Source of the DNA: Arenicola marina | Lineage: Eukaryota; Annelida; Polychaeta; Arenicolidae | Reading direction: 5' to 3' | DNA length: 64,000 bases | NCBI GenBank assembly: GCA_964019135.1 | Contig: OZ025248.1 | Coordinates: 9,555,574 to 9,619,573, forward strand | In this document: in pieces, positions 1 through 53,500 of the stretch | How positions within the stretch are numbered: the first letter of the stretch is position 1 | Layout: each line of letters begins with the position of its first letter | Position numbers and translations under genes: made by a program | Notes under the pieces: model-generated | Database searches by the model: none | What the model was told of the DNA's origin: nothing | Seen by the model: the letters and a program-made list of their open reading frames with translations, nothing else

Positions 1-279
1 AGACTCTGTGGACACGGCAGAGAATCTCCATTTATAACAGTAACAACAGATTAGCAAGATGAAGGACCGAAGAAAGCGCTCACACACGTCTATTATGTAT
101 TGCAGAACAACTCCTCTGGGAAAATCGCTTAGTCTTTGCTATTTGTCCATGTTCCTACGATGTATAATTAACGCAGAACACCAAATCCATGTTAATCAAT
201 GATGGTACGGCCTATCAAGCATCATTAGACAGTTGTCATGGCAACATTGAACTGACGGTAAACTGTGGATTCTACTCAC

Positions 280-3200
280 CGGACTCCGACAAGGATTCCA
301 AATCATCTTCTGCAGATTTCAGTGAAGGACATACTGAAACGTACAACGTTAACGCGTCAACATGCGTTCACCTGTCAACTCGCTAGCACATTGCACACTT
401 TGTTTCAATATTCCGTACCTTAATGCAAATTGTCTGAACATGGATTGAGACGCTAGGCACGGACAAGCATGACCATATAGATATCAAATAGTTCCACCAA
501 CAAATATCTGGGCGGCAATGATGACGGCATCACCCATCAGTGGTCCATGCATTGGCCATATATAACCTCTACTGACAAATTTTTGTAGTGGATTCGGTAG
601 CAGAACATTCGTGCAGTTCTATACAGATGTATGGCCAGCCAACCTTGTTCTGCACTGATGTGGAAGATGTGGTTGTTAAGGCCGAGGACTATGTCCCCCG
701 CCCGGTTGAGGAAGCACAGGGTGGAGAGGGAGTCGTTCAGAGTGATCTCCGTCAGCAGGACTTTATCCTTCTGCCACACCTTGATACAGCCGTCCGCGCT
801 GTAGTCAAACAGGAGAAACCAAAATATAAAGCAGGGCGAAACATGCAACAGGGTAGAGACATTAGCAAAATGGGTGACTGGTGCACATGTATTTACACAA
901 TGGCGCGTTGCAAACACGTGGAGTGTGACCTCCAACAGAGACCAAGGACACACACGTGCATGACCCCGGCTATAGCTACACGGTATTTAAAATTAGGAGA
1001 CATTAGCCATACAGGTGGTGACCCAGGAGCATGCCCCATGTTCCCACAGCTGTTTCCTACCTGGCTGTGCAGTAGATTCCCAGCTGTCGACAGCTGTCGA
1101 TGGCTATCACAGGACCCGGGTGGTCAGCATTCATCAGGTCCATCCCCGAGCTCTCCGTGCAGTCGTCGCCCGCCCGTACGACTTCACAAAGAAACATTTG
1201 CACAATAGTTTGACTTAAACCATAGGTTACGACATCTCACAACATAAAAAAATTTCTTTCGATTTGTTTTTAAAACGACAGCGGGCCTAATTCATTTACC
1301 AGGATGACGTCACATATTGGTTTCTGATTGGTTGGCGATTGAACACATATGGTATTATTGGTTTTGTTACAACATATATGTGTTCATTTTGTCATTCCCT
1401 GCCTGCTACACCTTGTTAATCGGTTCTTTATTACTCCATTATTAACGTTATTAATGTATCACGCTAGATATAGTTTTCAGATGTAACCCAATCTGTCACC
1501 AAATACAAACATAATGGCGAGCACAAGACCAATAGAACAGGATAGAACCTTTTGGAGCAAGACTGATGGGTGATAAATTTTGGCACCTGGCGATAGTTTA
1601 GACGCATAGTCACACTAGAACCAAACATCGACATGCTGACTGTGTCAAGCTTGCCCAGCGGCGGACTTGTCAGTTCAGCGCTAAGGGCAAAAACTCGTAA
1701 CCAGTTCAAGTTAAAAGAACGAAAGCTAATCTCGTCCACGTGGGGATGTCACCCACCGTCACGCAGGACGAGTTGGGTATCCTACCTCGGGGACGAAACG
1801 CACTGTGTAGGGTTTGTTGGATGGGTATCAAGGACTGCTGAAGAACCGATCCACTCTGGTGACACGTTATGAAGCAGGAATCCTGGGAAAACACAGAACA
1901 ATGCCACTCCAACTTATTGAATGCAATGTCACGGCGAAGGCACTAGTGACGTATACAATGCGATGGCTGAAGTTATTCCCTTAATAATAATATTTTTTAA
2001 ATTTTATCGCTCCAGCGACTAAGGTACCGGTTCGTGTTAGCTACCATGTCATCTTTTACACATATTTAGGGATAAATCTTTCTCGAAGCGTATCAAAAAT
2101 ATTTCCGCTAACAAACCGTAGTTTCTTTTTTATTTACATAACCGTCAAATGCCCCAGTTATCGCCCATGGACCATATTTGTTCAATGATGCACACATCCC
2201 GATTTTAACCAGGTGTTATAATTGTGCATAGCATGGACCAGATGCGACATAAATCAGTCAAAAACGTTTGAGCCAACGCGCACCTGTGTGGTATACCTAC
2301 ACACCCGCGATAGCTGGAACCTCGACAACTGATCCGGTATTGCCTACGACTGAGAGGGAGTGGCCATACGATTTGGACGTGTTTGTGAACTGACCAGCCT
2401 TGTGAACCCGGTGATGTCAGCAGGGGTGTGGACCACGTGGGTGAGCGTCAGTTCCGGCAGGGACCAGACCTGAATGAGCAGACTGTCCGCCTGGCGCACG
2501 CGGGTCAACAGACAGCTGTACTCAGCGTCATGACGCACGTCCTCAATCTGCAGGCAAGAACTGGAACATTAGCTCAACTATCACGAGAGAATTACAAGGA
2601 GATACAGTCCGCAATCTGTAGGCAAGGACAGGAACATTAGCTCAACTATCACGAGAGTATTACAAGGAGCTACAGTCCGCAATCTGTAGGCAAGGACAGG
2701 AACATTAGCTCAACTCTCACGAGAGAATTACAAGGAGATACAGTCCGCAATCTGTAGGCAAGGACAGGAACATTAGCTCAACTATCACGAGAGTATTACA
2801 AGGAGCTGCAGTCCGCAATCTGTAGGCAAGGACAGGAACATTAGCTCAACTATCACGAGGGAATTACAAGGAGATACAGTCCTCTATCTGCAGGCAAGGA
2901 CTGACAGATTAGTAAAATAGTTTATGCACCTATCATAAGATACTATCCGACTCCAAGGCCATTGAGAATAGTATAATAGTCAACATATTATTACAGGGAG
3001 ATATCGGTACTTAATCTACGGGCAAGGAATGACAGAACAGTACAATAGTCTATACACATAACGTAATATACCACCGATATACAGGCAGTTAACCTAATTA
3101 CACAATTAATACAGATGGTAATGGTTGATACAGTATTACTGGGAGATTACATGGACTCTCCCCACAAACAAAAGAATATCATAAGAGTTATAAGACAACT

Positions 3201-6200
3201 GTATCGACAACCTTGAAATAGACATTGGTCACAAAAAGAATTCGGTACTTGTAACGAAAAAGAAGTTGAATAGTTTGTCTGAGACGTACAGCGTCTTTGT
3301 GAGCCTGCAGCTGGAGATATTTCTCGGCCTTGACAACGGGGTCCATGAACAAGATACGGCCATCCTGGCAAGAAGCAAAAGTCTTTATATAACGTAAGAA
3401 ATGGCATTTTATTATCGACATACAACAGAGGATAATGTAAGTATTTTTTATTATTTTATTATCGAAATAAACTAGAGGATACTTGTAATGTAAACATTGA
3501 ACGAAGTAGTTAACTATAATGCGGAGGAAGGTGATCGGGATGCTAATGATGAGATTGATGATGACGAGATTGATGAGACATTGACAGGAGCGCGGATACT
3601 AATGCTGGTTGGTTGGTTGTATATTCAGGACGCTTCAACCAATTATGATCATATCGCGTCAATGGGAGAAGGCAAGTAGGGTGCAGCCATGTCCCCCGGC
3701 GTAACGCCCTACTCTCTGCGAAGTATGACATGGGATCTTTATCCTGCGACCACACAGACATGAGCACCGCGGGGCTCGAACCACCGATCCGCGTGCCGTT
3801 AGACTCATAAGTGGCCAGCGCGCTGAAGGCGAGCGCTCTAACCCAGTGAGCTATCGGGGCGCCCCGGATACTGACGCTGGGGATGATAACACGATGGTAT
3901 TGACGTGGGTCAGTAGACGACATTCTATGATGTTGAGTATTACGATAAGACTAAGGGCGTGTTCGATTTACATGAAACCGATGGGAAACCGAAACCGTTT
4001 TTGAAACCGGTTTCAACGGTTTGCCCACCCAAAGACGAACGTTTCATTTTTTTTACAGTATCACCATGTATTTTTGGTTTCATGTAAATCGAACACGCCC
4101 TTAGACGTTGACAGTCCTGGTGACGACATGTCAGTGTTGGCCATGCTGATCCCAGGCTTACCTCGAGGCCCAGGAGGAGGAAGGAGTGCCTCAGCGTGCA
4201 GACCATGCCCTGGGCAGTCCACGTCATCACATGACTCTCCAGGCTGCAGGCGCTCAGACACTCGGAGACCAACTCGTACCCAGACCCGTGCTCGGTGGCC
4301 GGGTGGCTATAGGTGTGGCCTCGCTTCTGACTCCTAGCCCGGCTCCGACCGCTGAGAACAGACACAACGTGAATCACTTATACATAAATACATGGGTGGT
4401 GTCGCCAATGCATTGGGTTAAACCAGGCAAATAAAACCTGGTCAGAGATTTCGAGTAAAGGAGCATGAAGACGGGCTGTAAAGTAAACCGCTATAAACCT
4501 AATGTGCTAGGGACAGAGCATTTGATTCAAATTACAGGTTTTTGGTTTCTAAAGTTCAAGTACGGGAGTCCCAAAATTCGGGGTATGGAAAAAGGGTCTC
4601 GGTTTCGAGGTTCCACTGTATGTACATACATTGGCCTGGTGGATAACGCGTTCGGCTATTGTCGAGTGCGGTGTGCTAGGCCAGTCGAAATGTACCGCCG
4701 GTGCGTGGTTCGAAACTTGCCAGTGCAAATATATGTTGTGTTACATAAAGATCCAATGTCTTCCTTGGCAGAGTGGTGGGTTACTCCCCTAGACATGGAT
4801 CATCTTTACCGCGACCCTTTCCATTTTCGAGATATGAACTTAGCGGTTACAGCATCCTACTTAATCAAGCAACCAACAATCGATGTACAAAAACACGGGC
4901 CAAGGTAAATCATCATTTGGGGTTAACAATGCCATCAAACACCACACCTTTTGGTGGGTTCCGGTTCTGATTTCCGCTTGGCGGCGCCACCTTCAGCCTC
5001 GACTTGCATGAGACGCTGTTGGATGTTCATGAGATCCCAGACGGCCACTCGACATGCTGGGTCAGTTCTGGAACAATATAGACAACAACGTCTCGTCAAC
5101 TAGGAACAACGAATACAACGCTTCTCTTATACTTCAGTAATAATCAGTACAAAGTGCGAACAAATTGCATCATAAAGAAATAAGTTAAAGACATGAAACC
5201 ATTAGCGAAGATATTGTAGTTAAAAGGCTCTACCACGTACATCCTTTCGATATCATTATGATGGTATCTGTTTATGCCGGCTATGAACAGCAGTGAGACG
5301 TTCGTAGGCGCCATGTACATTTCGATAGCATCTTTGTTCCGTAACGTAATAACTAATACATAAGATACATAAACCGGGGAAATCTCTTTAGTTTTGATAA
5401 ACATATAGACCACGCATCTTACCTGACAGTATAAACCCAAATCTCTTTCGTGTTGATAAGCAGATATACCACGTTGAATGAACGGTTGTAGACAGCGCCC
5501 CTGATGGTCTGTAGCGGAGACACGGAGGGCGGGGGCAGCACTGTAGACAGGTGGCGTCTGGAGCCACGTGAGAAGATCCTCACACTGCATGGACAGGAGG
5601 CATAAAGATACATACAATTAGTACATAGGAGAGCTTCAAGTTATACGGAACTGGAGTCCCACCCGACAGCTTAAAAAATGTTGCGGGAAGTATAATGGTG
5701 ATATATCCGTATATGAAATATATATATCAAATCCTAAAACTCTAATTCGTAGAGCGCATACGATATCGAATCGAGCGTTTGAGAAACTATCAAAATTGTA
5801 TCAAACAGGTGGGTTTGCGGTACTTTGCAAATATAGGAGTGTTAATTAGCATCGCTTTCTGAGACAAATATATCGGTAAGTCTCTTTTAACATTCGGCAC
5901 GAGTCAAGGAATCTCTCACCTGTTGTCCTCGCCGACGGCCATCACTCGCGTGCTCTTGTCCCCGCCGCGCGCCAAGGTCACACTGCGCACCCTGTTGCGA
6001 GAGTGCGCCCAGTAGATGGCGCTGCGGTTGATTCCCCACAGGGTGACGGTGCGTAGCGTACCGAGGAAGAGGAGATTGTCCTCCGTGAGTCCCATCCAGA
6101 TGACTCCCTCAGAGGACACGGTCAGGCTGCGGCAGTGATGAAGGCAGGTAACGAGAGTGAGGCGGTCCCCTTAGTTAAAAGGCTTTTAACCCGAAATCGG

Positions 6201-6405
6201 GTGCTTAATAATGGTTAGATTACACTGGTTGATAGGAATGCACACATTCAGGCAACAAATACACCAAGAAACATTTTAATATGTACTTAGCGATATATAA
6301 CATATAAAACGGACTAACAAATACTTTTTTTTCAAATATCGACAATGTGAGATGGGACGACAACAGTGATGTTAAGAGATAAGGTATCAGCATATAGGTG
6401 CAACA

Positions 6406-6444
<39 letters not shown>

Positions 6445-9400
6445 CGTGCTCGAGACCAAAACGACAACATTAAATTATGCTTTCCTTTATCAAAATAGCA
6501 TATTTAAAGGATGGACATGACAAAATGCATTCTCCACCTGTAGACGGCAGCCATTGTATGAAGGGACCAGATGCACACAGTGCCATCTAGCGAGCAGGTG
6601 AGGACCAGTGCCGAGGTGTCGGGGTGAAGGAGCAGGTTGGTGACGGGGCGGGAGTGACCGCGAAATGTGTGCAGCATGCCCCCCGCCAGACTCCACACTT
6701 TAACTGCAAAAACCCGACCTTGGTACATGGCAGGCATGGGGTGGTTCTATCGTCAATGTAATCGAGTACAAGTAGTAAGAGTAAAAAAAGTAAAAGTCCC
6801 AACCTAACATATAGACCTTAAAGCACCTACATGCGCCAAATGTCACACGTATGTGATGCCATGCACACATTTCCACAGATAATACAAAATTACTACATGC
6901 ACAAGTACATATGTATAGAATCGTACTCAAAGAGACGCTTATGGTTATTCCAAAAGAACAAAGGGCAAATATAACCATAGCAAAATCACGCGAACATATA
7001 TCAAGCCGAAACATGGTAAAGTGTAAATTCATATATGATGCTGAACGTAAAAGTGTTTTCAGGATTGTATGCGACTGCTTTATGGCAAACAAAATTGCAA
7101 TATTGCTAATATATTCTAATATATTTATAATTGGGTCTTGTCAAAATGGTAAGCAGCCTGGTCCCTTACCTTCTGTGTCTACCGAGGATGTAACGAACAC
7201 GCCAGCTTCCTTGGAGAAAGCACAACCAGTTATCGACATGCTGTGAGCTCTGCAAGGAGAAAAGAAAGCACAACCCGTTATCGACATGCTGTAAGCTCTG
7301 CAAGGAGAAAGCACAACCAGTTATCGACATGCTGTGTGTGAACTCTGCAATGAAAAAACACAACCAGTTATCGACGTGCTGTGTGTGAGCTCTGCAAGGA
7401 GAAAGCACAACCAGTTATCGACATGCTGTATGTGAGCTCTGCAAGGAGAAAGCACAACCAGTTATCGACATGCTGTGTGTGAACTCTGCAAGGAGAAAGC
7501 ACAACCAGTTATCGACGTGCTGCGTGTGAGCTCTGCAAGGAGAAAGCACAACCAGTTATCGACATGCTGTATGTGAGCTCTGCAAGGAGAAAGCACAACC
7601 AGTTATCGACATGCTGTGAGCTCTGCAAGGAGACCAGGACATATCAATCCACAATCGCCGACATCTCTGAGACATGAGACGACCTAGCTATATCTCTTAC
7701 CTTATCCCAGCAGCTGTCCATGTTCACTGCGGTAATAATCCTCAATGGCCCACTTTACAGTGAGATCCGACCAAAAGCGCACCACCACTTCCCATTCATT
7801 CTTCATCTTGACGAGTCAATAATAACGGTACAATAAGATTATCCTTTAAACCTGCAGCTTGGACAGTGACCGTGACAGAGCAACTATGGTCAGGTTCAAG
7901 CCCACCTTTCAAACTTGAAGAGGAGGTTTCCGTCCATGTCGTAGGCGAGCAGGTCGGTGTCGGAGCAGCAGTAGAGGTGTTGGAGGTCGAGGTCGAGCTC
8001 CACCCTCTTCACCCACGATCCTCCCACACTGGGCAGCTCATACCTGCACCAAGGACAACGACATGCAGCCTATGGAAGACCAATCAGCTTCACCGATAGG
8101 AAGTATTTGTCTAATACTACGATTCTCTTAAGAACAGTTGAAATATTAAGGACAACAGGTTTATGCATCTTACCGGTAAACTCCACTCTTTGCGAAAGAC
8201 TCTATAAAATCCTAAATCTGCATATTACAGGAAGAACTATTATATTCGCCAACAAATGCGAGGGAATTATGACCTTAGCCCAACACCAGTTGAACACGTG
8301 TGCGGAATGGAAATATAGTTACTGCATCACAAGTGTTGATTCTATAGTTCGGTAGGTGCCATCGGTAAAGTGCTAAGATACGGTTATAGCAATCAAGTTA
8401 GGTACGGTTGGCTTACTTCAATTTCAGTCTGTAGTTAGCCATGGGTTTGATTTCGTCCCATGTCTTTTCTGCAGATTGCACATACATCCACACCTGCAAA
8501 AGACAGGTCATCCAATAACTCCGTGAGTAATGCGGTTATCACTGCGACTATAACGTAGCTAGTTGTCACATGGCATCGTATGATCACAAGCCGTCATCCA
8601 ACTCTTACACAATAAATAACTTTGCTGTAACTGCGTTATAATTATTATAATGAAAACAAATCGAGTGTCTGTTATACAGGTCTGAGGCCCTGGAACGCCG
8701 GAGAACGTACCTTTGTTCCGCCGACTCCACCAGTGATGAGTTCATCTCTCACAGGGTTGAAGATCATAAACAGAATAGACCTAAGGTCTGAGCTCACGTG
8801 GCAAGTCTCCTCAAAATTTCTATTTAATACCTGCAAAAAGTGTCAAAGACAAAATGAGGTATAGTCAATTGTCCATTTTTTATGTATTACATGCATTGTT
8901 GCATATATATGTTCGAAATTTGCCCAGTACAACCAACCAATATTGGCAGAAAATAACCCTCAAGTATAATAACATTTATTTGTGATGGATTTGGATTTTG
9001 ACATGATCATCACATTCTCATACATTACCTTGAGAGAAAAATCCTTTCCCAGCGCAAAGTATACATTGTGTTTCTTTGCATAGATGAAACTGGTTAATAC
9101 TCTATATTCGTACTTCGCGTAGGTCATCGCTCGTACAACTGCAAAAGCAATATTCAACGTTATACCGAGAGAGATTCACATTTCTTTGTCAGGAGCCAGA
9201 TGGACTGCTAACTCTGTATTTATAAGTATTCAGTTTCACTGTAAACTCTTCTGGGACAGTACAGACGTCGGTACAGACGTCGGTACAGACTCTCTCGCAA
9301 TACCCATACATGTAGGTGATCCCGATAGCTAGAAATCTCAAGACAGAAAACCCCGCCGCTCTCAGGTCCTGACAGGAACCTGAAGACAGAAAAACCCGCC

Positions 9401-10448
9401 GCTCTCAGGTCCCGACAGGAACCTGAAGACAGAAAAACTCGCCGCTCTATCGGTCCCGATAGGAACCTGAAGACAGAAAAACCCGCCGCTCTCCCGGTCC
9501 TGATAGAATTGGTTGGTTGGTTGGTTATTCAGAACGCTTTAACCACTTTTGGTCATATCGCGTCAATGGGAGAAGGCATTAAGGGAGATCGAGTGGAGCC
9601 ATATCCCCGGGGGTAACCCTTACTCTTCACGAAGAAAGACATGGGATCCCGCGGACTTTCAATTCTGCCTGAAGCGCTATAAGGTTAGTTTCCCTTTTAA
9701 AGTCTGGTAGCCAGAGCTAAGAATGTGACGTTATTTGCTCATATCACTCAGCCCCTATTCAACAAAGTGTGGGTCTAACGGCAAACGGGTAGTTCCTTAA
9801 TAATTGTCGAACGTAGACATAACGTATACCTTGCTGACCAGCCGCATCTTTATTCCATGTGGTTATGCCTTTGGAATCAAGGATAACAAAGTGCCGCATT
9901 CTCCCATTGTAGGCAACTGGAAATCAAAATGGCACAATTAGAGATTTTGTGTTTTAAATCGTGACAGAAGAAGGCTCTTATTTTTTGTATTGCAACAATC
10001 TATATATTGTGTATGCAGGTATTATTAACTGGTACCGGTACATGTACCTTAAAAATATAGGAACCGCAAAGTAGAGTGCCTGACGTGCCTGCCTGGCCTG
10101 CATGAGTTCACATGAGAAACATTTAATGTTTTGGGAAATATTGTGGACTGAAGTTGTCATTATTATAATGCCTGAGAGCTAGGCCGCTAAACGCACCACC
10201 CATAATGTCGGTGCTCTTCTTGCTGTGTTCATAGGCAGCTCGGGGTTGCAGTCCATAGGATAACGATGTAAACTGCTCGGATATCCGTGTGTCCCTGTCC
10301 CCTTCCTCTGTCTGAGTATCTCTGTTGAGCAGGAGGCCATTCTCAATCTGATCTTGGATTTCTAAAAATATTGCATCTTCTTTAGGTGGAGCTTCCTCCG
10401 CAAGCAGTTCTCTAAACTCCCCATTGACTTCTTGCTCCTTGGAGTCCC
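280..10448 (-). CDS. WD40 beta-propeller protein, WDR97/WDR87-like (partial, runs off left edge)
   Basis: Exons in transcription order, all with AG/GT borders and matching phases: 10448-10197, 9916-9830, 9138-9029, 8830-8711, 8493-8417, 8043-7906, 7249-7170, 6703-6538, 6126-5920, 5584-5423, 5067-4948, 4351-4162, 3364-3290, 2547-2395, then 1181-1061, 798-644 and 333-280 after a poorly resolved stretch. About 755 residues are visible. WD-type blades are clear: GVKVWSLAGG, DGTVCIWSLH, RTVTLWGINR, ADGCIKVWQKD, with GH and AHKDA loops before them. The segments GGVGGTKVWMY and GSWVKRVELD, the RTDPACR motif and the FLNRAGDIVLGL stretch resemble the large WDR97/WDR87 proteins of cilia and sperm; that family call is from memory of those sequences. 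The first exon is unsolved: the 10448 exon needs a preceding phase-1 exon and has no early ATG. The 3' end lies beyond base 1. The propeller probably serves as a protein-binding scaffold; no catalytic motif is seen. Confidence 0.8.
1565..1882 (-). other. Uncertain exon(s) of the WD40 gene
   Basis: Between the 2547-2395 and 1181-1061 exons the reading frame must be bridged. A good 3' splice site (TTTTCCCAG) opens a phase-0 frame at 1882 beginning DSCFITCHQSGSVLQ, which reads like a WD strand, with a GTAGGA donor near 1791. A second open stretch at about 1675-1565 (frame AELTSPPLGKL to RLNYRQ) is preceded by a pyrimidine-rich AG and followed by a GTGCCA donor. The phases of these two pieces and of the 1181 exon do not close, so at least one border here is wrong or an exon is missing. 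A transcript alignment is needed. Confidence 0.3.
2541..2905. repeat. 68-bp minisatellite containing splice-acceptor copies
   Basis: About five head-to-tail copies of a 68-bp unit, for example GGCAAGG at 2621 and 2689. On the minus strand each unit contains a pyrimidine tract, CCTACAG and ATTGCGGAC, which mirrors the true 3' splice site of the WD40 exon starting at 2547 (CCTGCAG then ATTGAGGAC). The array lies directly upstream of that exon in the intron and touches it. Copies differ by a few substitutions. Confidence 0.85.
3594..3880 (-). mobile_element. tRNA-derived SINE, full length, with target-site duplication
   Basis: The element (3609-3865, minus orientation) begins with a tRNA-like head. 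An A-box-like TAGCTCACTGG is followed by a B box GGTTCGAGCCC. A unique body follows, then a 3' tail of AACC repeats, seen as GGTTGGTTGGTT on the plus strand. It is flanked by imperfect direct repeats GGATACTAATGCTGG (3594-3608) and GGATACTGACGCTGG (3866-3880), as expected for target-primed insertion. It sits in an intron of the WD40 gene. Related copies are at 9510, 14178 and 59970. These are Pol III-type elements mobilised by a partner LINE; that part is general knowledge of SINEs. Confidence 0.85.
4630..4715 (+). mobile_element. tRNA-like SINE head, different family
   Basis: A tRNA-like stretch with an A-box-like segment (CTGGTGGATAACGCG) and, about 65 bases later, a B-box-like GGTTCGAAAC. 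It lies in an intron of the WD40 gene. No clear tail or target-site duplication was found, and the interior is too diverged for a functional tRNA, so a SINE remnant is more likely than a tRNA gene. Confidence 0.45.
6405..6441. repeat. (AAT)n microsatellite
   Basis: About twelve uninterrupted AAT trinucleotides in the intron between the WD40 exons at 6703-6538 and 6126-5920. Confidence 0.95.
7212..7640. repeat. 43-47-bp minisatellite built from a splice acceptor plus exon start
   Basis: About nine tandem copies on the acceptor side of the WD40 exon 7249-7170. Read on the minus strand, each unit is the first ~36 bases of that exon (AGCTCACA, CAGCATGTCGATAACTGG, TTGTGCTTTCTCC) joined to CTTGCAG. 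Every copy therefore carries a complete 3' splice site followed by exon sequence. The innermost copy is the real exon start and then diverges into AAGGAAGC. Units vary by a 4-base CACA insertion. The outermost copy, near 7635, is preceded by GTCTCCTTGCAG, probably the ancestral intron end. Confidence 0.9.
9336..9505. repeat. 43-44-bp minisatellite, four copies
   Basis: Units begin AGACAGAAAA at 9341, 9384, 9427 and 9471. On the minus strand each has TTTTTCTGTCTTCAG, a good-looking 3' splice site. It lies in the WD40 intron between exons 9916-9830 and 9138-9029, but I see no similarity to either exon. Confidence 0.85.
9510..9660 (-). mobile_element. 5'-truncated SINE copy
   Basis: Same family as the element at 3609-3865: GGTTGGTTGGTTGG tail, then the conserved CATATCGCGTCAATGGGAGA body and the CCCCGGGGGTAACCC segment. 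The tRNA-like head is missing, as is common for LINE-driven copies. It lies in an intron of the WD40 gene directly after the 9336-9505 minisatellite. Confidence 0.8.
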
Positions 10449-12640
10449 CTGCAAGGTCAAATATATGTAATTAAACCAACATGTTTTGGTGTTTTGGGGT
10501 TTCACACACAGACTGCCCATTTACACACTTAAACAAACAGGATCACTTTAACTACTTGTAGTTAAAAACCTCTACAATGCTTGTTGAAGGTATAAAGACC
10601 TCAACCATTTAATCATCAGATAAATTATACAAATGCATATTAATTAAGCAGGGGTTTCATACCTTCAAGTCCTTTCATCATTTTAGGAAGTTACCTATCA
10701 TCTATACTTGTATCTATATATCTTCATGCAGCTGAAATGAAAAAGAGACATATATGTAACATAAAATTGCCATAGTCCCACTACTCCTGAGCTGAAATAA
10801 ATATGTAATAAATAATATAAATATGGTTTCAAATCAGTATAATTTATTATATCTTATATTCTCCTCTTCAATGATGGGGGTGTGATTAGGGTTCAGGCCT
10901 TAATTGTTGGCCTCATACATGACAGGGGAACAGAATCCTGCAGTGATTCTAATAGGCAGCCAGTGGGTGCAGGGTCCCAGTGTCCCAGAGCTCCTTAAAA
11001 TTATGAGACATCCAAACAATAATGGGACAGTAAGTGAAATGAAATATTGCGTAGTTCGCTCACTATATATTTACAAAGTGTCACCATATTCCTTCACAGT
11101 TTAATGAAATATATCACTTGAAATTTTGTGCAAAAAATGACTAAAGATGTGTAAACCTATCAGACTCGCTGACCCTGTCTCGCTATTCCAGGCAGGCAGC
11201 AAGCTCATCAGATCCTGAGATGCATGACATCATAACTATGCCACTAGAGCTGATATCAATGTATTACATTATTAGTTTATTATTATTATTATCAGGTTTC
11301 TATAGTGCCAAATCTGTTCAAAAATTAATTTCTTTATTAAACCTCAATTGTCATTTATCTTAACCCCCCCAGCCATCTAGCTGCATGGGCATGTCTCAAC
11401 TCCTTGAAATATTGACCACAGTATGTCTGGCACCAATACTCTGTGGTCAATTGGTCTAGCAGTCCAAGCTTAAACCGAAGGAGTAAGTTATAGGTATTTT
11501 TTTAGTACCATTCAATTTCATTTGGAATATAACTTCTTAAGAGAAGACAAGTGGTTTAAGCCCACCCACTTTGACTGCGGTCTGTTTCGGTGTATGGCAA
11601 AATAGCCATACTACCAGAACAGGCGTATGGGTTAGGATGTGAGGGGTAGCAGTTTATAGGCGTGGGGGAGAATGGTCGAGAGAAAAGAGATGCAGCCAGG
11701 TTTTGACCACTGGATGATTTGACTGTGGGAGTGTGGAGGGGAAAGGGGTGTATAGGCCTTATATATGGCTGGAATAGGACCCTAGCTGTCTCACTAGTCA
11801 AGGCAGGTAGATAGCTTATCAGACTCAGAGATGCCCAACGCTGTATTTCAATTAAGGAAGTGGGCTTGCCTGGGGGCACTTGCGCTAACTGCTGGAGCTG
11901 ATATGGTTCATGCTGCCGTCCAAGTATGACGCCTTATCCTGTTGCTCGCCCCAACCACCGATAGGCAACCACCATGTTTCAGCTGATTGATGATAATACC
12001 CACCTATCTCAATTCCTCTTCACCTGGGAATGCCTCTAACCCCTCGATCATTTACCTCCAAACGGCCCAAACCATCCCCAATACAAAGTATGGTTTCCAA
12101 AGTTTACCCCCACATCCCCACTGGCGGTCAAATTGTCCAGTGGTCAACATGGGCGTAAACCGGACAATTTATTGCATCGACACCACACGGCTATCATATA
12201 ATTAATACTCACCTGCACGCAGCGACTACACACGGAAGATAACAGTACTAATGTCGTAATGACCATGTGACCCAACTTCGAGACGACAACAACTACCGGC
12301 ACTTCAACCTTCAACCACTGACCAGTCAACATCCTTCACTTCAATGTAAGCCAATTCAATTCGATTCAATTCAATAATCAAGAACTAAGCTTATTCAGTT
12401 ATTTTAACTGTTAACGTATGACGACGAAAATGGCCCGGGAGCAATTATTTTTTCTATGCTCGGGTCAGCATTGACAAGAAGATCAGAATCAGCAAAAACA
12501 GACATCCGAAAGCCTCCGTTACTTTCATTGTCAACAGCCACTCATCAAAACAATGTGAACTTTTTTAAACAAACATAAAGAACATATCCAACATAGACAA
12601 GCACAAGCTAGCCTACACCTTACTTATCCGCCATGTTGTT
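10449..12640. other. Putative 5' intron/upstream region of the WD40 gene
   Basis: No convincing coding exon was found. A minus-strand ATG at 12633 (ATG GCG GAT AA, then GTAAGG) looks like a short first exon, but its phase (2) does not match the phase the 10448 exon needs (1). A ~30-bp stretch near 11861-11890 (GGGCTTGCCTGGGGGCACTT) recurs in inverted orientation near 21880-21910, so part of this region is dispersed repeat. Confidence 0.4.
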
Positions 12641-27269: not shown

Positions 27270-29266
27270 ACGTGTCTCGATCGCCACACTCATTTGAAAT
27301 CGGTAAAAGGCTGCAGCTTTAAATAGGCAGTTTATGGTATAATTAGTTATTATATACCTATGGGTCACCCAAATTTTACTCTCTTTCTCCCAAGCTTTTG
27401 AAACTGTACTCTTTTGAGACTGAAGTTTTATCTAAATTACAGCTCTTGTCTATAAAGCCTTATTCCAGTTGATATCGAAAGTGTTCAATTAATTAACCTC
27501 CATATAGTTTATATTGCCATGACTGTCACTGTCTATTTTGGATGCCTATCTATATAACCAAAGAGATATCTTTTAATTTCCATAAAATCAAGCCCTTTTC
27601 ATTCACTCTTAATATGGCCTGGGCATACCCTCACCACTGAACTAATGTAGTGTCCCCCTCCCTACCGGGCTCCATTAACTGAGCTTCTAGGTTTCGGAGA
27701 ACTAGGCCAGGGACACAGTCCTGACACTTTTTTTGACAGTGACAGTGGGTGCATTTCTATGGGCAAACCCGCTATGCTGCCTGGTATACTCAACATATTC
27801 CTGGCCTGTCGATAGTGCTATGCTGAATATCTTCACAACTGTTGTGTCCAATTCATTTACAGGTAATGAAATCTAGACATCACTTTGGAAGGTTTTTCCT
27901 GGGTTTTCCTGGTTGCAGCTTTTGCAAATGACATTACACATATAGTGATGTACAAATAATTTAGGGTGGAGTGGGGGAGGGGTGGGGGCTTGACAGGGGA
28001 CTGGCTGCTGGAAAGGCAGTCATGGTATTAGAAGGTCGTCAAAGATAATATTGTGTGAAGCATAACAATGAGTGTGATGATAAATTGGACTGTAATATCT
28101 AAAGAAATATTGCTAAATTATAATGTTCTGTAATCCCTACAGACAATGCTGTCAAGCATAACAATCAGTGAGCTCTTATTAGGCCATCAACTATCTCTAG
28201 TGTCTCATTGACATCCAATTACAACAAAATATGCTATTCAACGCTTTATGCATGCTCATTTTAGTTTGGTTGTATCAATTTGTCCAATAACTAAATATAA
28301 AAAATAATGCAAGTGTGATCTTTCTCTGTTAGCAGTTTTAATAGTAATCATGTATTTAGCATGATTTAGGTGTGTAAAGCTATATACATTTGCATTTGCT
28401 GTTTAAGACCACTTCTTTACCTGGCAGAAATAGTTCTCATGTGGCAAACATTATTTTTCTTCTGTATTTATCTCCTAGCTTGTAATTATTTTTACAATGC
28501 CACATACACTTCTCTTTTAATTAAAGGATTTAACACCAACAAGAGTAGCAAAAAATGTTTTGTAAAATTATGTCATATAAGGAATTCCAGCATAGACACC
28601 TTTGTAAAACCTGGTATGTATTTTACCAATAAAAATTGTCAATTATCTGAGGTAATCAAGGACATGTTTGACCAGGAATCTCTTTACTCACCTTAGTCTT
28701 AATTAGCATGCACTGTGTACTCTTATAGCTTTTTGTCCCAACTAACTGTTTTGCTTGTGATCATACATGTAGTTTTACTTGTGTGTATTAACCATATGCT
28801 ACAAGGGTTTGAACTTTGTTCCTTAAGAAATGTGGTGATAAGATACCTGATAAAAGTCTTGATCCTTCAATGTGTGTTCCATGACGCCTACATGGCAAAG
28901 ATGAAAGTCTGATTAGATCTAGTTGATAGGAAACTATCTGGCAAATGATTAGTGGTAGAGTGCAGTCCTTTTATCTGCTCTATTGTAGTACAGATGTGAA
29001 TGAAGTCACATATGAAGTAGCCAGACACAGCCAATGTCAGCTGTACTGTGACAGCAGTATTGCATCTGTATATATATATGCAGATTAATTATATGTATAC
29101 AATTTTATTGTGTTACGGAAATAACTGACAACATGGCGTTAATATTGTGGCCGGCAGGTGCGCCCAGTGCGCTCGCAGGACTTTCCGTCAGCGTTCTCTC
29201 CAGCCAGCCTCCAAGATCTACCAGGAACCTTCAGTATATCTCAGCTGTGCATGCCTGCGCTGAGTC

Positions 29267-32200
29267 ATGTCGTCCACGGAGAGCAGGAACACAGTCAGGA
29301 AGCGTAAAATGGTTCCCCAGTCTCTAGTCGGGTTCGCGGCCTCGTCACAACAGGCTGCTCACCTCGGCCCTAAGTCCCCACCCCCCGGAAGCGAGATGGC
29401 GACTCCGGGGCAAAATCATTCCCACTTAGTCATGGAGGTTACATCAGATGATTACGGAGGGCAGGGAGCCCAACAGCCAGAAAGGACCAACGGAGACGTG
29501 TTCACGAACACTGGGACAAAAACTAATGGAAATGGCGGCTCCCATACCGGCTCCAGCCACGCGGGTACATTCATGGGGGGTTTCCAAGAGACCAGCCTCA
29601 CCACCCCTTTGCTGCAGGATTCCTCATCCGACGAGCGCGAGGTTGGTGAGGCTGAGGCCAGAGACATTACAAACCCGGATGCTCCAGTAGAAGCCAAGGG
29701 GTCAGAAGAGGCCTCCTGGCAGGTCGCCCTGCAAGTCTTCTTCCCCTATATCGTTGCGGGATTTGGAATGGTCGGGGCTGGCATGGTGCTCGATAAGGTT
29801 CAGGTTGGTGGTGAATTGCAAATGGCATTGTTCATTGGTTTATAGGATACTTACCTTAAATTTTCTTCCCTATAACATATCTAGCCGGAGCTGATGTATG
29901 TCATTCACGTGGGTAAGTAATCCGTTGTTATTTACTATGCTTAAGCTATATATGTGTAAGATTATGTTATAATATTATTATTGCAGATTGGTATACATAC
30001 AACGATACACTATTTTATCTTATATCGCTAGCATCTAATAACCTTCTAGTAAATTAAATGTTTTCTTAATACAATTGAGGGCTTTGGTGTTATGGTAGTT
30101 CTATGTTGGCCGTCTTTGGTTGTCTTGTGCATGGTAACCGGGGTATTTACGCGTGCGGCTCGTAGACTCTCTGACATTGCTTGCAGCACTGGGATGTGTT
30201 CACACATGTGTCGGAAGTGTTCATCCTGGTACCAGCCCTGCTGGGACTGAAGGGCAACCTCGAGATGACGCTGGCATCGAGGTTATCCACACAGGTAAGA
30301 CACGGGATGCTGCATGGATGAATTGATGCTTTATGTCACCTTTGTGGGACCACGGGCCAAATCAGACTAAAGCACGTCTAGGATATAGAGGGGAAGTCCC
30401 CTCGGGTGCGGTTTGAACCTGCGACCTGTTGGTCTGCTGTCGAGTAGGCTACCTCTCCACAACGGCGGTCCCTCTCGGGTGGGGTTGAACCTGCGACCTG
30501 TTGGTCTGCGGTCGAGTACGCTACCTCTCCACAACGGCGGTCCCCACGGGTGGGGTTTGAACCTGCGACCTGTTGGTTGTAACATGTCGGAATAGATAGC
30601 CATTTTATTTCATCACTCTTTGGTTGTTTGGTTGCTTCGAGCAGGCCACTTAACACTTCAGTGTCGCCCGGCACCACCAGCTAGGGCAGTGATGCCCTAG
30701 AAATTTTTAAATGGGGGACATCGTGTCCCACACTATAAAATTTTGGGGGACATTTTGGATAATATGGGGAACTGTCAGTTCCGATGGCCGTCGGCCGTTC
30801 GTATAGCGGTCATATGGCAGTTAAAGTGCTGTTTACAACAGGCTCATGCAACCGTAGTCCATCGGACGGAGCCATAGTCCGCGACTGGAGCCATAGTCCG
30901 TGATTGGAGTCATAGCCCACGACCGGAGCCATCGCCCACGACCTCAGCCATAGCTCACGACCGGAGCAATAGTCCAGCGCACGGAGCCATAGTCCAGTGC
31001 ACGGAGCCATAGCCCCTGCACTGACCCATAGCCCGTAGCACTGAACCATAGCTCACGATCGGATCCATAGCCCACGACCGGAGCCATATCCCGCGACCGG
31101 AGCCATAATCCGTGACCGTAGCCGTAGCCCGTCGCACGGAGCCACAGTCAAGCGCACGGAGCCATAGTCCGCGACCAGAGCCGGAGTCATAGTCCGCGAC
31201 CGGAGCCAGAGCCATAGCCGGGCGCACGGAGGCATAGTCCAGCGCACAGAGCCATAGTCCAGCGCACAGAGCCATAGTCCAGCAAACGGAGTCATTGTCC
31301 GTAACCAGTGGGTCATTAATTGCCCCTGATCGGAGCCATAGCCCGCGACCGGAGCCATAGTCCAGCGCACGGACCCATGGTCCGCGACGGGAGCTATAGA
31401 CCAGCGCACGGAGCCATAGTCCGCGACAGGAGCCATAGTTCGCGACCGGAGCCATAGTCCGCGACCGGAGCCATAGTCTAGCGCACGAAGCCATCGTCCA
31501 GCGCACGGAGCCATTGCCCGTGACCAGAGCCATTAATTGCCCATGACCGGAGCCATATCCCGGCGCACGGAGCAATAGTCCGGCGCCTTGAGTGTCGGGA
31601 ACCGAGAACGCGAGAACACGAGGGCGAGAACGCGAGAATGCAAAGGTGAAACCCACCTTGCGTTGTCGCCCTGGCGTACGCGCCTTCTGGCGTTCTCGCC
31701 CCTGTTTTGTCACAGGCGAAAATGCGCGATAGATATTTGGCCGAGAACTGCAAGCATCAGCTATAAAGCTATAAAGTTAGCGGCAGGCTCCCTCCGCTCA
31801 GAGGAAATATTGCGTCCTCATAATACACACACTAAAAATGTACAATATAAGGCTGCCACCAAAGCCTGCAAAGGCCCCTACAGTTGAAAATTCCATTGAC
31901 CGCTTGACCGCAGCCGGACACGGGGACGCATGTGTCGCATTTTTACGGGACATTTGCCCTATTAGGGGGACAATGGCGCAAGGCCGCGCTCTGCGGCGAA
32001 CACTGCTAGGGGGAGGCTGGCGTTGTCGACGTGCGCCCGTTTTGGCCTCAACTCGGCCATGTTATTTGTCACTAAATATGCACGTTGTGAACTAGAATAC
32101 ATCGGCGCATCTTGTCTCATCTCTAGTTAATACTCTTTTATACGTATAATCGTCATAAATAGGACCATATTATTTTCGTACATTATCAACTCTCACAAAT

Positions 32201-42958: not shown

Positions 42959-45592
42959 TGTTGACCGAGTACTAAAGCGCTCATTGGCGCCGACTGCGGT
43001 GACCGAGTACTAAAGCGTTAATTGGCGCCGTTTGCGGTGACCGCGAATACTAAAGCGCTCATTGGCGCCGTCTGCGGTGACCGCGAGTACTAAAGCGTTC
43101 ATTGGCGCCGTCTGCGGTGACCGTGAGTAATAAAGCGCTCATTGGCGCCGTCTGCGGTGACCGCGAGTACTAAAGCGTTTATTGGTGCGGTCTGCGGTCA
43201 CCGAGTACTAAAGCGCCCATTGGCGCCGTCTGCGGTGATCCAGTACTAAAGCGCTCATTGGCGCCGACTGCGGTGATCGCGAGTACTAAAGCGTTTACTG
43301 GTGCCGCCTGCGGTGACCGCGAGTACTAAAGCGTTTACTGGTGCCGTCTGCGGTGACCGCGAGTACTAAAGCGTGTATTGGTGCGGTCTGCGGTGACCGA
43401 TAGTACTAAAGCGCTCATTGGCGCCGTCTGAGGTGACCGCGAGTACTAAAGCGTTTATTGGTGCCGTCTGCGGTGACCGCGAGTACTAAAGCGTTTATTC
43501 GTGCGGTCTGCGGTGACCGCGAGTACTAAAGCGCTTATTGGCGCCGTCTGCGGTGACCGCGAGTACTAAAGCGTTCATTGGCGCCGTCTGCGGTGACCGC
43601 GAGTACTAAAGCGTTCATTGGCGCCGTCTGCGGTGACCGAGTACTAAAGCGCTCATTGGCGCCGTGTGCGGTAACCGAGTATTAAAGCGCTCATTTCTGC
43701 CGTCTGGGGTGACCAAGTACTAAAGCGCTCATTGGCGCCGTCTGCGGTGACTGCGAGTACTAAAGCGCCCATTGGCGCCGTCTGCGGTGACCGAGTACTA
43801 AAGCGCTCATTTGCGCCGTCTGCGGTGATCCAGTACTAAAGCGCTCATTGGCGCCGACTGCGGTGATCCAGTGCTAAAGCGCTTATTGGCGCCGTCTGCG
43901 GTGACTGCGAGTACTAAAGCGGACATTGGCGCCGTCTGCGGTGACCGAGTACTAAAGCGCTCATTCGCGCCGTCTGCGGTGACCGCGAGTACTAAAGCGC
44001 TTATTCGCGCCGTCTGCGGTGACCACGAGTACTAAAGCGTTTATTGGTGCGGTCTGCGGTGACCGAGTACTAAAGCGCTCATTGGCGCCGTGTGCGGTAA
44101 CTGAGTACTAAAGCGCTCATTTCCGCCGTCTGCGGTGACCGCGAGTACTAAAGCGCTCATTCGCGCCGACTGCGGTGACCGCGAGTACTAAAGCGCTTAT
44201 TCGCGCCGTCTGCGGTGACCACGAGTACTAAAGCGTTTATTGGTGCGGTCTGCGGTGACCGCGAGTACTAAAGCGCTCATTGGCGCCGTGTGCGGTAACC
44301 GAGTACCAAAGCGCTCATTACCGCCTTCTGCGGTGACCGCGAGTACTAAAGCGTTTACTGGTGCCGTCTGCGGTGACCGCGAGTACTAAAGCGTGTATTG
44401 GTGCGGTCTGCGGTGACCGATAGTACTAAAGCGCTCATTGGCGCCGTCTGAGGTGACCGCGAGTACTAAAGCGTTTATTGGTGCCGTCTGCGGTGACCGC
44501 GAGTACTAAAGCGTTTATTCGTGCGGTCTGCGGTGACCGCGAGTACTAAAGCGCTTATTGGCGCCGTCTGCGGTGACCGCGAGTACTAAAGCGTTCATTG
44601 GCGCCGTCTGCGGTGACCGCGAGTACTAAAGCGTTCATTGGCGCCGTCTGCGGTGACCGAGTACTAAAGCGCTCATTGGCGCCGTGTGCGGTAACCGAGT
44701 ATTAAAGCGCTCATTTCTGCCGTCTGCGGTGACCAAGTACTAAAGCGCTCATTGGCGCCGTCTGCGGTGACTGCGAGTACTAAAGCGCCCATTGGCGCCG
44801 TCTGCGGTGACCGAGTACTAAAGCGCTCATTTGCGCCGTCTGCGGTGATCCAGTACTAAAGCGCTCATTGGCGCCGACTGCGGTGATCCAGTGCTAAAGC
44901 GCTTATTGGCGCCGTCTGCGGTGACTGCGAGTACTAAAGCGGACATTGGCGCCGTCTGCGGTGACCGAGTACTAAAGCGCTCATTCGCGCCGTCTGCGGT
45001 GACCGCGAGTACTAAAGCGCTTATTCGCGCCGTCTGCGGTGACCACGAGTACTAAAGCGTTTATTGGTGCGGTCTGCGGTGACCGAGTACTAAAGCGCTC
45101 ATTGGCGCCGTGTGCGGTAACTGAGTACTAAAGCGCTCATTTCCGCCGTCTGCGGTGACCGCGAGTACTAAAGCGCTCATTCGCGCCGACTGCGGTGACC
45201 GCGAGTACTAAAGCGCTTATTCGCGCCGTCTGCGGTGACCACGAGTACTAAAGCGTTTATTGGTGCGGTCTGCGGTGACCGCGAGTACTAAAGCGCTCAT
45301 TGGCGCCGTGTGCGGTAACCGAGTACCAAAGCGCTCATTACCGCCTTCTGCGGTGACCGCGAGTACTAAAGCGCTCATTGGCGCCGACTGCGGAGATCCA
45401 GTACTAAAGCGCTCATTGGCGCCGTCTGCGGTGATCCAGTGCTAAAGCGCTTATTGGCGCCGTCTGCGGTGACCGCGAGTACTAAAGCGTTCATCGGCGC
45501 CATCTGCGGTGACCGCGAGTACTAAAGCGGACATTGGCGCCGTCTGCGGTGACCGGGAGTACTAAAGCGCTCATTGGTGCCGTCCACATATT
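42959..45592. repeat. 40-bp minisatellite with a 1020-bp higher-order duplication
   Basis: About 66 copies of a 40-bp unit (GAGTACTAAAGCG, CTCATTGGCGCCG, TCTGCGGTGACCGC), with 37-bp variants lacking three bases in CCGCGAG. Bases 43321-44340 are repeated at 44341-45360; I saw a single difference (TGGGGT at ~43706 against TGCGGT at ~44726). Each unit has the palindrome GGCGCC. No stable protein is encoded. Confidence 0.95.
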
Positions 45593-49299: not shown

Positions 49300-50285
49300 T
49301 GCACATCGGGTATGTACACGACCCTGGTGTGGACAAGGCCCTGGTGTATACACGCCTGATGTTTACACCTCTGATGTGTACGGTCCTGATGTGTACACCA
49401 CTGGTGTGTACACATTAGGGGTGTACAAGGCCATCGTGTATACACATCAAGGGTTACAAGGCTATGGTGTATACACCAGGGGTGTATACACAACAGGTGT
49501 GTACAAGGCCTCGGTGTGTACTCAACATGTGTGTACACAACAGGTGTGTACAAGGCCCTGGTGTGTACACAGTAGGTGTGTACAAGGCCCTGGTGTGTAC
49601 TCAACAGGTGTGTTCGAGGCCCTGGTGTATACACAAATGGTGTGTACAAGGCCCTGGTGTGTATACAACAGGTGTGTACAAGGCCCTTGGATGTACACAA
49701 CTGGTGTGTACAATGCCCTGGTGTGGACTCAACAGGTGTGTACAAGGCCCTGGTATATACACAAGTGTGTACAAGGCCGTGGTGTGTACACAGCAGCTGT
49801 GTACAATGCCTTGGTGTGTACACAATATGTGTGTACAAGGCCCTGGTGTGTACACAAAAGGTGTGTACAAGGCCCTGGTGTGTACACAGCAGGTGTGTAC
49901 AAGGCCTTGGTGTGTACACAATAGGTGTGTACAAGGCCCTGGTATGTACACAACAGGTGTGTACAAGGCCCTGGTGTGTACACAACAGGTGTGTACAAGG
50001 CCTTGGTGTGTACACAGCAGGTGTGTACAAGGCCTGGTGTGTACACAGCAGGTGTGTACAAGGCCTTGGTGTGTACACAGCAGGTGTGTACAAGGCCTTG
50101 GTGTGTACATAAGTGTGTACAAGGCCTCGGTGTGTACACAGCAGGTGTGTACAAGGCCTTGGTGTGTACACAGCAGGTGTGTACAAGGCCTTGATGTGTA
50201 CACAAGTGTGTACAAGGCCTTGGTGTGTACACAGCAGGTGTGTACAAGGCCTTGGTGTGTACACAATAGGTATGTACCATGCCCC
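49300..50285. repeat. 32-bp minisatellite open in many frames
   Basis: About 30 copies of GTGTGTACAAGGCCCTGG followed by TGTGTACACAACAG, with starts at 49925 and 49957, for example. A short form of about 28 bases lacks CAACAG. Because 32 is not a multiple of three, three copies give a 32-residue peptide period. Frames of 423 residues (minus) and 308 residues (plus) run through it. The mirrored TGTGTACA/TGTACACA parts could pair. Confidence 0.95.
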
Positions 50286-50529
50286 GGTGTACGTGGCGGT
50301 GGACGGTTGATGCAATGCTATGTAGATGCGGGTCACATACCGGCCACTTCATGGCGTGCAGACAGATCGTTTGATTGGTATACCTCGTAAAACTCTTCAT
50401 CCCGCACGAACCTGCATCACCCGCGACAGTGGCCAACCCGCTGGCACAGTCAGCCCAGATATTACACAGCATGTTTGCTGAAGTAAATGTTCTATTCAGT
50501 CCACCGAAAATGTTTTACTTCCCCAACTC

Positions 50530-53500
50530 CCACGCGGGAGTAGGACAAATAGAGAGACGGGCTCAGCCCCGCTGTAGGAGAAGTAGAGAAACGGGCTCAG
50601 CCCTGTGGTAGAACAAATAGAAACGGGCTCAGCCCCGTGGTAGGACAAATAGAAACGGGCTCAGCCCCGCTGTAGGACAAATAGAGAAACGGGCTCAGCC
50701 CCGTGGCAGGACAAATAGAAACGGGCTCAGCCCCGCTGTAGGACAAATAGAGAAACGGGATCAGCCCCGTGGTAGGACAAATAGAAACGGGCTCTGCCCC
50801 GTGGTAGGACAAATAGAGAAACGGCCTCAGCCCCGTGGTAGAACAAATAGAAACGGGCTCTGCCCCGTGGTAGGACAAATAGAGAAACGGCCTCAGCCCC
50901 GTGGTAGAACAAATAGAAACGGGCTCAGCCCCGTGGTAGGACAAATAGAAACGTGCTCAGCCCCGCTGTAGGACAAATAGAGACGGGCTCAGCCCCGTGG
51001 TAGGACAAATAGAGAAGCGGGCTCATCCCCGCTGCAGGACAAATAGAGACGGGCTCAGCCCCGTGGTAGGACAAATAGAAACGGGCTCAGCCCCGTGGTA
51101 GGACAAATAGAGAGACGGGCTCAGACCCGTGGTAGGACAAATGGAGAAACGGGCTCAGCCCCGCTGTAGGACAAATAGAGAGACGGGCTCAGCCCCGTGG
51201 TAGGACAAATGGAGAAAGGGGCTCAGCCCCGTGGTAGGACAAATAGAGAGACGGGCTCAGCCCCGGGGTAGGACAAATAGAGAAGCGGGCTCATCCCCGC
51301 TGCAGGACAAATAGAGACGGGCTCCGCCCCGTGGTAGGACAAATAGAAACGGGCTCAGCCCCGCGGTAGGACAAATGGAGAAACGGGCTCCGGCCCGCTG
51401 TAGGACAAATAGAGACGGGCTCAGCCCCGTGGTAAGACAAATAGAGACGGGGTCAGCCCCGCTGTAAGACAAATAGAGACGGGCTCAACCCCGTGGTAGG
51501 ACAAATAGAGAGACGGGCTCAGCCCCGTGGTAGGACAAATGGAGAAACGGGCTCAGCCCCGCTGTAGGACAAATAGAGAAACAGGCTCAGCCCCGTGGTA
51601 GGACAAATAGAAACGGGATCAGCCCCGCTGTAGGACAAATAGAGAAACGGGATCAGCCCCGCTGTAGGACAAATAGAGACGGGCTCAGCCCCGTGGTAGG
51701 ACAAAGAGAGAAACGGGCTCAGCCCCGTGGTAGGACAAATAGAGACGAGCTCAGCCCCGTGGTAGGACAAACAGAGAAACGGGCTCAGCCCCGTGGTAGG
51801 ACAAATAGAAACGGGCTCAGCCCCGCGGTCGGTCAAATAGAAACGGGCTCAGCCCCGTGGTAGGACAAATAGAGACGGGCTAAGCCCCGCTGTAGGACAA
51901 ATAGAGACGGGCTAAGCCCCGTGGTAGGACAAATAGAGACGGGCTCAGCCCCGCTGTAAGACAAATAGAGACGGGCTCAGCCCCGCGGTCGGACAAATAG
52001 AAACGGGCTCAGCCCCGTGGTAGGACAAATAGAGACGGGCTCAGCCCCGCTGTAAGACAAATAGAGACGAGCTCAGCCCCGTGGTAGGACAAATAGAGAC
52101 GGGCTCAGCCCCGTGGTAGGACAAATAGAGACGGGCTAAGCCCCGTGGTAGGACAAATAGAGACGGGCTCAGCCCCGCTGTAAGACAAATAGAGACGGGC
52201 TCAGCCCCGCGGTCGGACAAATAGAAACGGGCTCAGCCCCGTGGTAGGACAAATAGAGACGGGCTCAGCCCCGTGGTAGGACAAATAGAGACGGGCTCAG
52301 CCCCGCTGTAGGACAAATAGAGACGGGCTCAGCCCCGCTGTAAGACAAATAGAGACGGGCTCAGCCCCGCGGTCGGACAAATAGAAACGGGCTCAGCCCC
52401 GTGGTAGGACAAATAGAGACGGGCTCAGCCCCGTGGTAGGACAAATAGAGACGGGCTCAGCCCCGCGGTCGGACAAATAGAAACGGGCTCAGCCCCGTGG
52501 TAGGACAAATAGAGACGGGCTCAGCCCCGCGGTCGGACAAATAGAAACGGGCTCAGCCCCGTGGTAGGACAAATAGAGACGAGCTCAGCCCCGTGGTAGG
52601 ACAAATAGAGACGAGCTCAGCCCCGTGGTAGGACAAATAGAGACGAGCTCAGCCCCGTGGTAGGACAAATAGAGACGAGCTCAGCCCCGTGGTAGGACAA
52701 ATAGAGACGGGCTCAGCCCCGCGGTCGGACAAATAGAGACGAGCTCAGCCCCGTGGTAGGACAAATAGAGACGAGCTCAGCCCCGTGGTAGGACAAATAG
52801 AGACGAGCTCAGCCCCGTGGTAGGACAAATAGAGACGAGCTCAGCCCCGTGGTAGGACAAATAGAGACGAGCTCAGCCCCGTGGTAGGACAAATAGAGAC
52901 GAGCTCAGCCCCGTGGTAGGACAAATAGAGACGGGCTCAGCCCCGCGGTCGGACAAATAGAAACGGGCTCAGCCCCGTGGTAGGACAAATAGAGACGGGC
53001 TCAGCCCCGCGGTCGGACAAATAGAAACGGGCTCAGCCCCGTGGTAGGACAAATAGAAACGGGCTCAGCCCCGCGGTAGGACAAATGGAGAAACGGGCTC
53101 CGGCCCGCTGTAGGACAAATAGAGACGGGCTCAGCCCCGTGGTAAGACAAATAGAGACGGGGTCAGCCCCGCTGTAAGACAAATAGAGACGGGCTCAACC
53201 CCGTGGTAGGACAAATAGAGAGACGGGCTCAGCCCCGTGGTAGGACAAATGGAGAAACGGGCTCAGCCCCGCTGTAGGACAAATAGAGAAACAGGCTCAG
53301 CCCCGTGGTAGGACAAATAGAAACGGGATCAGCCCCGCTGTAGGACAAATAGAGAAACGGGATCAGCCCCGCTGTAGGACAAATAGAGACGGGCTCAGCC
53401 CCGTGGTAGGACAAAGAGAGAAACGGGCTCAGCCCCGTGGTAGGACAAATAGAGACGAGCTCAGCCCCGTGGTAGGACAAACAGAGAAACGGGCTCAGCC

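Follow-up and report, generated by a model that had tools for sequence, protein, structure and literature searches.

Tandem copies of splice boundaries in a WD40-repeat gene and other genes of an annelid genome resemble the mirage minisatellites of amphioxus

The window analysed here, a 64,000-nucleotide stretch of the genome of the annelid Arenicola marina, carries on its minus strand a WD40-repeat gene that continues past the window start. Our model of this gene comprises 20 exons joined across GT-AG introns in an uninterrupted frame of 795 codons; of exon 20, only the first 5 bp lie within the window. The predicted product contains WD40 repeats according to a Pfam search (PF00400, E 6.1e-17) and matched WD40 structures in a PDB search, in agreement with a first-pass annotation of this DNA, which had placed exon 7249-7170 in a WD40 gene. 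The gene is single copy, with one DNA match only, and a search of the genome found no paralogues that could represent an array-free ancestor. The features of this gene to which we refer below are, in window coordinates:

1 to 10681, minus strand: WD40-repeat gene, 20 exons seen in the window, continuing past the window start
7249 to 7170, minus strand: exon 8, whose acceptor AG (7251-7250) is the innermost copy of array 1
7213 to 7633, minus strand: array 1, nine tandem copies of the 3' splice site and the start of exon 8
7629 to 7633, minus strand: outer TCTCC, in the pyrimidine tract of the outermost acceptor (GGTCTCCTTGCAG)
7213 to 7217, minus strand: inner TCTCC, within exon 8 (GCTTTCTCCAAGG)
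7439 to 7579, minus strand: copies 2 to 4, first 141-bp three-unit block
7298 to 7438, minus strand: copies 5 to 7, second three-unit block, 137/141 identical to copies 2 to 4
7250 to 7297, minus strand: copy 8, with the sole extra acceptor whose use would add 16 in-frame codons and no stop
2395 to 2547, minus strand: exon 15, of which most array 2 units share only about 9 bp (one mismatch)
2539 to 2901, minus strand: array 2, 68-bp units carrying GTTCCTGTCCTTGCCTACAG before and ATTGCGGAC after the junction, ending at the real exon 15 acceptor

The window is rich in repeats and includes very long minisatellites at 50540-57217 (32 bp x207), 42966-45584 (40 bp x67), and 49401-50290 (32 bp x28). 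A dispersed tRNA-like element (GATAGCTCAGTGG ... GGTTCGAGCC, with the shared tail GACGCGATATGACCAAAAGTGG) was found at window position 3855 (-) and at 4694 and 1986 (-) of the locus L081, and tails of it at window positions 9564, 14233, and 60021 (-); its appearance is that of a tRNA-derived SINE. Scanning the window for tRNAs and Rfam families gave no matches. Further long open frames lie at 61073-62044 (-) and 29264-29842 (+), the first group being ankyrin-like by eye. Elsewhere in the genome, two nuclear globin exons matched giant extracellular haemoglobins, one entry being from Glossoscolex paulistus and the remaining ones presumably of annelid origin. The mitochondrial contig (C762; 15,942 bp) encodes on one strand nad4L-nad4 ... 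nad1 ... nad3-nad2-cox1-cox2-cox3-nad6-cob-atp6 ... nad5, which we take to be the Lumbricus-type annelid order. Nine of the ten open reading frames tested had Pfam matches (nad4L, nad4, nad1, nad3, a nad2-type antiporter domain, cox2, cob, atp6, and nad5), the nad6 candidate had no Pfam match, cox3 was assigned by eye, and ARAGORN made 25 tRNA calls, some of them spurious. The mitochondrial gene order and the haemoglobin matches point to an annelid host and speak against amphioxus.

Array 1 lies at the end of intron 7 and was described by TRF with a period of 47, 9.1 copies, and 89% matches. It contains nine minus-strand acceptors of the form TTGCAG/AG (the slash marks the junction), and the start of exon 8 is repeated after each. 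The first exon-like bases are at 7622, 7579, 7532, 7485, 7438, 7391, 7344, 7297, and 7249, with spacings of 43, 47 (six times), and 48 bp, and the innermost copy runs on into exon 8. The first-pass annotation had read positions 7212-7640 as a minisatellite made of acceptor and exon-start copies, and aligning the units with the exon, the check it had proposed, bore this out. Its count of about nine competing acceptors holds for the total, although only eight are extra and the ninth is the real one; likewise, the exon start is indeed repeated in each unit, but the exon part measures 37 bp including TCTCC rather than about 36. Each unit therefore spans the boundary of a real exon, with 37 bp of exon and the end of the intron. 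Among pairs of 47-mers in the region 7150-7700, the best was identical at 47/47 positions versus at most 29/47 in 200 dinucleotide shuffles, and a chance origin of the similarity is excluded. The AG is kept in 8/8 extra copies of array 1 and 5/5 of array 2, among copies found by similarity to a query that itself includes the AG. As had been claimed, the innermost acceptor leaves exon 8 intact, and with this authentic boundary copy the frame is open over the 20 exons.

Both ends of array 1 are bounded by TCTCC, a 5-bp direct repeat correctly noticed at first pass in the outermost pyrimidine tract and inside the exon; this homology is one case, that of array 1. The accompanying statement that the unit is exactly the DNA between the two TCTCC copies applies to the 43-bp outermost unit only, because copies 2-7 carry a 4-bp insertion. 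Since the outermost copy, copy 8, and the exon all lack this insertion, the exon-like form is probably ancestral. The repetition of the 141-bp block at 137/141 identity suggests that the array grew by a multi-unit step, and is an indirect sign of length instability. Slippage or unequal exchange, the origin put forward in the first-pass annotation, fits both the TCTCC repeat and the three-unit repeat.

The eight inner acceptors of array 1 are chimeras, in which exon sequence (GATAAC...GTGCTTTCTCC) stands upstream of TTGCAG. GATAAC is a branch-like motif whose A lies 24 nt before the end of the CAG (29 nt in the innermost copy), and it could act as the branch point of the copies. We scored the acceptors with a PWM built from 61 array-free acceptors of this genome (5% and 95% quantiles, 7.5 and 14.4). 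The innermost acceptor, which has the longest pyrimidine tract of the nine, scored highest (14.4), copies 2-8 scored 11.8-13.5, and the outermost was the lowest (6.3); for array 2 the values were 11.6 for the innermost, real site, 10.8 for the copies, and 4.8 for the outermost. Going by these scores, duplication may have improved the acceptor, or alternatively the weak outermost acceptors may have decayed after falling out of use. It would be a long shot to propose that boundary duplication served here as a route to splice-site upgrade, turning a weak acceptor into a chimeric one with its tract drawn from recycled coding sequence, and that the leftover, length-variable intron arrays tune the splicing of many genes.

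Use of the extra acceptors could produce alternative isoforms, or, by way of frameshifts and nonsense-mediated decay, it could make the amount of WD40 mRNA depend on copy number. None of the nine AGs is disrupted, 7/8 extra acceptors score 11.8-13.5, and the one at 7297, alone in frame and open, would add 16 codons. We nevertheless regard such use as unlikely, given that exon 8 would be read out of frame from five of the eight outer acceptors (7622, 7532, and 7391 by +1; 7485 and 7344 by +2) and that those at 7579 and 7438 preserve the frame but run into a stop. These outcomes for seven of the eight speak for use of the innermost site. Moreover, 6/14 arrays of this genome have a median unit divisible by three, near the third expected by chance, and the accessible text of the amphioxus work reports no interference, its Adh3 data and globin RT-PCR suggesting that regular splicing is undisturbed (PMC3087553).

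Array 2 is of the same kind as array 1 and lies in the same gene; it was absent from the first-pass annotation. The real acceptor of exon 15, with its first base at 2547, is preceded by five extra acceptors in 68-bp steps (2615, 2683, 2751, 2819, and 2887) and by a diverged copy at 3015.

TRF was also run over 200,533 bases, with some overlaps, made up of 59 globin and myosin loci plus a neighbouring stretch of 10 kb. Arrays were found on acceptors and donors of one globin and several myosin genes, for a total, including the two WD40 arrays, of 14 boundary arrays in eight genes as judged by map position. Those outside the WD40 gene are, by locus, unit, and copy number:

Globin acceptor: 61 bp, 34 copies found
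L079 myosin acceptor: 81 bp, at least 11 copies
L075 myosin acceptor: 54 bp, 15 copies
L066 myosin acceptor: 77/88 bp, 7-8 copies
L065 myosin acceptor: 84 bp, at least 6 copies
L058 myosin donor: 62 bp, 55 copies
L071 myosin donor: 33 bp, at least 57 copies
L078 myosin donor: 98-110 bp, 19 copies
L057 myosin donor: 32 bp, 12 copies
L065 myosin donor: about 37 bp, 9-10 copies
L079 myosin donor: 119/126 bp, 3 copies
L086 donor: 42 bp, at least 10 copies, on an exon outside the TRF set

The real exons of the L079 and L065 acceptor arrays and of L066, L075 (weakly, E 0.03), L071, and L086 matched the myosin profile, and those of L058, L078, L057, and the L065 and L079 donor arrays were matched by the myosin family. 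In every one of the 14 arrays an intact copy is joined to the exon; as the real copy was recognised through this junction, its exon-proximal position is partly a matter of definition. Leaving out L086, donor copies scoring as high as the real site numbered 50/54 in L058, 16/18 in L078, 44/56 in L071, 10/11 in L057, 5/8 in L065, and 2/2 in L079. If the exon-proximal donor is the one used, position and not strength must therefore decide. The corresponding figures for acceptor copies were 12/14 in L075, 5/6 in L066, 2/5 in L065, and 8/33 in L038. Only in L079 (0/10) and both WD40 arrays did the real acceptor score above all copies; in the remaining scored arrays, the real copy does not stand out by its strength. 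Mis-assembly is a common hazard of tandem arrays, and a supplement legend in the accessible material of PMC3087553 describes an aberrantly assembled amphioxus mirage. That mis-assembly multiplied the copies here is nonetheless extremely improbable, since they carry distinct substitutions and indels, with diverged edges and a higher-order pattern, and since 14 arrays in eight genes show the same thing.

In two of the myosin arrays, L075 (2139-2954) and L071 (2814 onward, oriented), the 54- and 33-bp units, read by hand, are open through most of the array (e.g. VSKHVGIIAIL repeated), so that intron retention could add a repeated peptide. One copy of L075 has a stop and two spacings are off by 1 and 2 bp. 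All 15 acceptors listed for L075 read TATAG/GTACAAG, with a donor-like GT directly after the acceptor, which resembles a recursive splice site.

A splice-site-specific mechanism (e.g. R-loops, splicing-coupled breaks, or retro-copying) could also make boundary arrays, as 14 of them span boundaries of acceptors and donors. We asked how often a 34-nt boundary-spanning sequence has a further copy within 300 bp. The globin and myosin genes, a non-random sample, provided 80 exons (29 globin, 44 of 77 matched myosin rows, chosen as lying in the DNA analysed, and 7 further exons). Of their 160 boundaries, called automatically with a matrix derived from the WD40 gene (18 acceptors, 19 donors), 102 were testable and 58, with no site scoring at least 5 within 24 nt, were dropped; the WD40 gene added 37. 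This strict test was positive at 10/139 boundaries, comprising 1/37 in the WD40 gene, 1/25 in globin genes, and 8/77 in myosin genes or, by type, 2/64 acceptors and 8/75 donors. Of the ten, L062 and L089 are G-rich and weak, and for L038 the test picked an incorrect AG close to the real one. The rate does not include five arrays whose exons were not in the matched set (L065 acceptor, L066, L071, L075, and L079 acceptor). Array 2, which spans its boundary with about 9 bp of exon only, failed the strict 14-nt test.

At noncoding positions, the same test was positive in 1807/9416 cases (19%; 62 non-redundant loci), in 48/355 within the WD40 gene, and in 815/3487 over the whole window. The boundary rate does not exceed those of the same loci or of the WD40 gene, and comparing the 139 boundaries with noncoding positions of the same loci we found neither enrichment nor a coverage peak at splice sites. 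Repeat coverage at acceptors was 2/64 at the site, 16/64 at 300 nt, and 13/61 at 500 nt, ranging from 13/62 to 16/64 between 200 and 500 nt. For donors, the site itself had 9/75, positions from 36 to 250 nt had 12/75 to 15/75, and those at 300 and 500 nt had 14/74 and 8/70, respectively. Acceptors are thus depleted of repeats, and donors, which stay at about the intronic level, little or not. The profile by distance shows that arrays are not concentrated at splice sites, and a splice-site-specific mechanism is accordingly very improbable. The acceptor-donor difference was not significant (p 0.11), nor did donors alone (8/75) differ clearly from background (p 0.058), these p values being rough because the control positions are autocorrelated.

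Considering all these data, we think it very likely that array 1 is a mirage born by tandem duplication between the TCTCC copies and tolerated with the exon-proximal site in use. A short segment across the intron 7/exon 8 junction would have been duplicated in tandem between these copies, and the array would have been enlarged by slippage or unequal exchange, one step involving three units. The duplication would have yielded chimeric acceptors with a pyrimidine tract and a putative branch point copied from the exon, stronger by PWM than the outermost one. The exon-proximal copy, running into an intact exon 8, would be the acceptor in use, and every outer copy would therefore simply be intron. 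Because this site wins, the array would be tolerated, and its growth into the intron would be harmless, as suggested at first pass. The repeated occurrence of such arrays in this annelid would follow from two circumstances: tandem repeats make up about one fifth of the sampled noncoding DNA, and splice sites would accept them as long as one good copy stays next to the exon. Seen in this way, mirages resemble the tolerated fringe of a general process in a minisatellite-rich genome.

The presence of mirages in several annelid genes, with more copies, suggests that they arise generally where new minisatellites form rapidly. For the study of splice-site choice the arrays serve as natural experiments: at least 55 near-identical donors stand in a row, and the exon-proximal one alone is joined to a protein-coding exon. 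They also bear on intron gain and complicate gene annotation. A literature search, covering sources outside most subscription journals and bioRxiv preprints, found no paper on annelid splice-boundary arrays. With intron gain by tandem duplication, for example in potato RdRp (PMC4974935), they share a within-gene tandem duplication involving splice signals, but they multiply the boundary of an existing intron and no new intron was seen. Earthworm metallothionein genes likewise have annelid intronic minisatellites; according to the accessible text (PMC12783039), however, the repeats lie within intron 1 and duplications of exon 4 are absent from transcripts, and these are not splice-boundary arrays.

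The closest likeness is to amphioxus, as the first-pass annotation had suggested: mirages are published under that name, according to the accessible parts of PMC3087553 and PMC3902484, for Adh3, the globins BflGb6 and BflGb9, and troponin C, with similar repeats in PGBD5. In the same sources, boundaries are duplicated on either side of exons, many copies retain AG or GT, the authentic copy adjoins the exon, haplotypes differ in length, and Adh3 shows somatic instability. Mirages are possibly general in cephalochordates (PMC3087553, accessible text). The annelid arrays resemble them in anatomy, as read from genomic sequence, being tandem repeats across an intron/exon boundary on the acceptor or donor side. 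Published amphioxus units measure 10-72 bp (Adh3), 150-160 and 157 bp (globins), and 60 and 108 bp (PGBD5) in the accessible text (PMC3087553, PMC3902484), whereas those of the annelid range from 32 to about 126 bp, with copy numbers reaching 55 and at least 57, in eight genes within about 0.28 Mb of partly overlapping sequence. The annelid arrays belong with the mirages, in a different phylum and as larger arrays.
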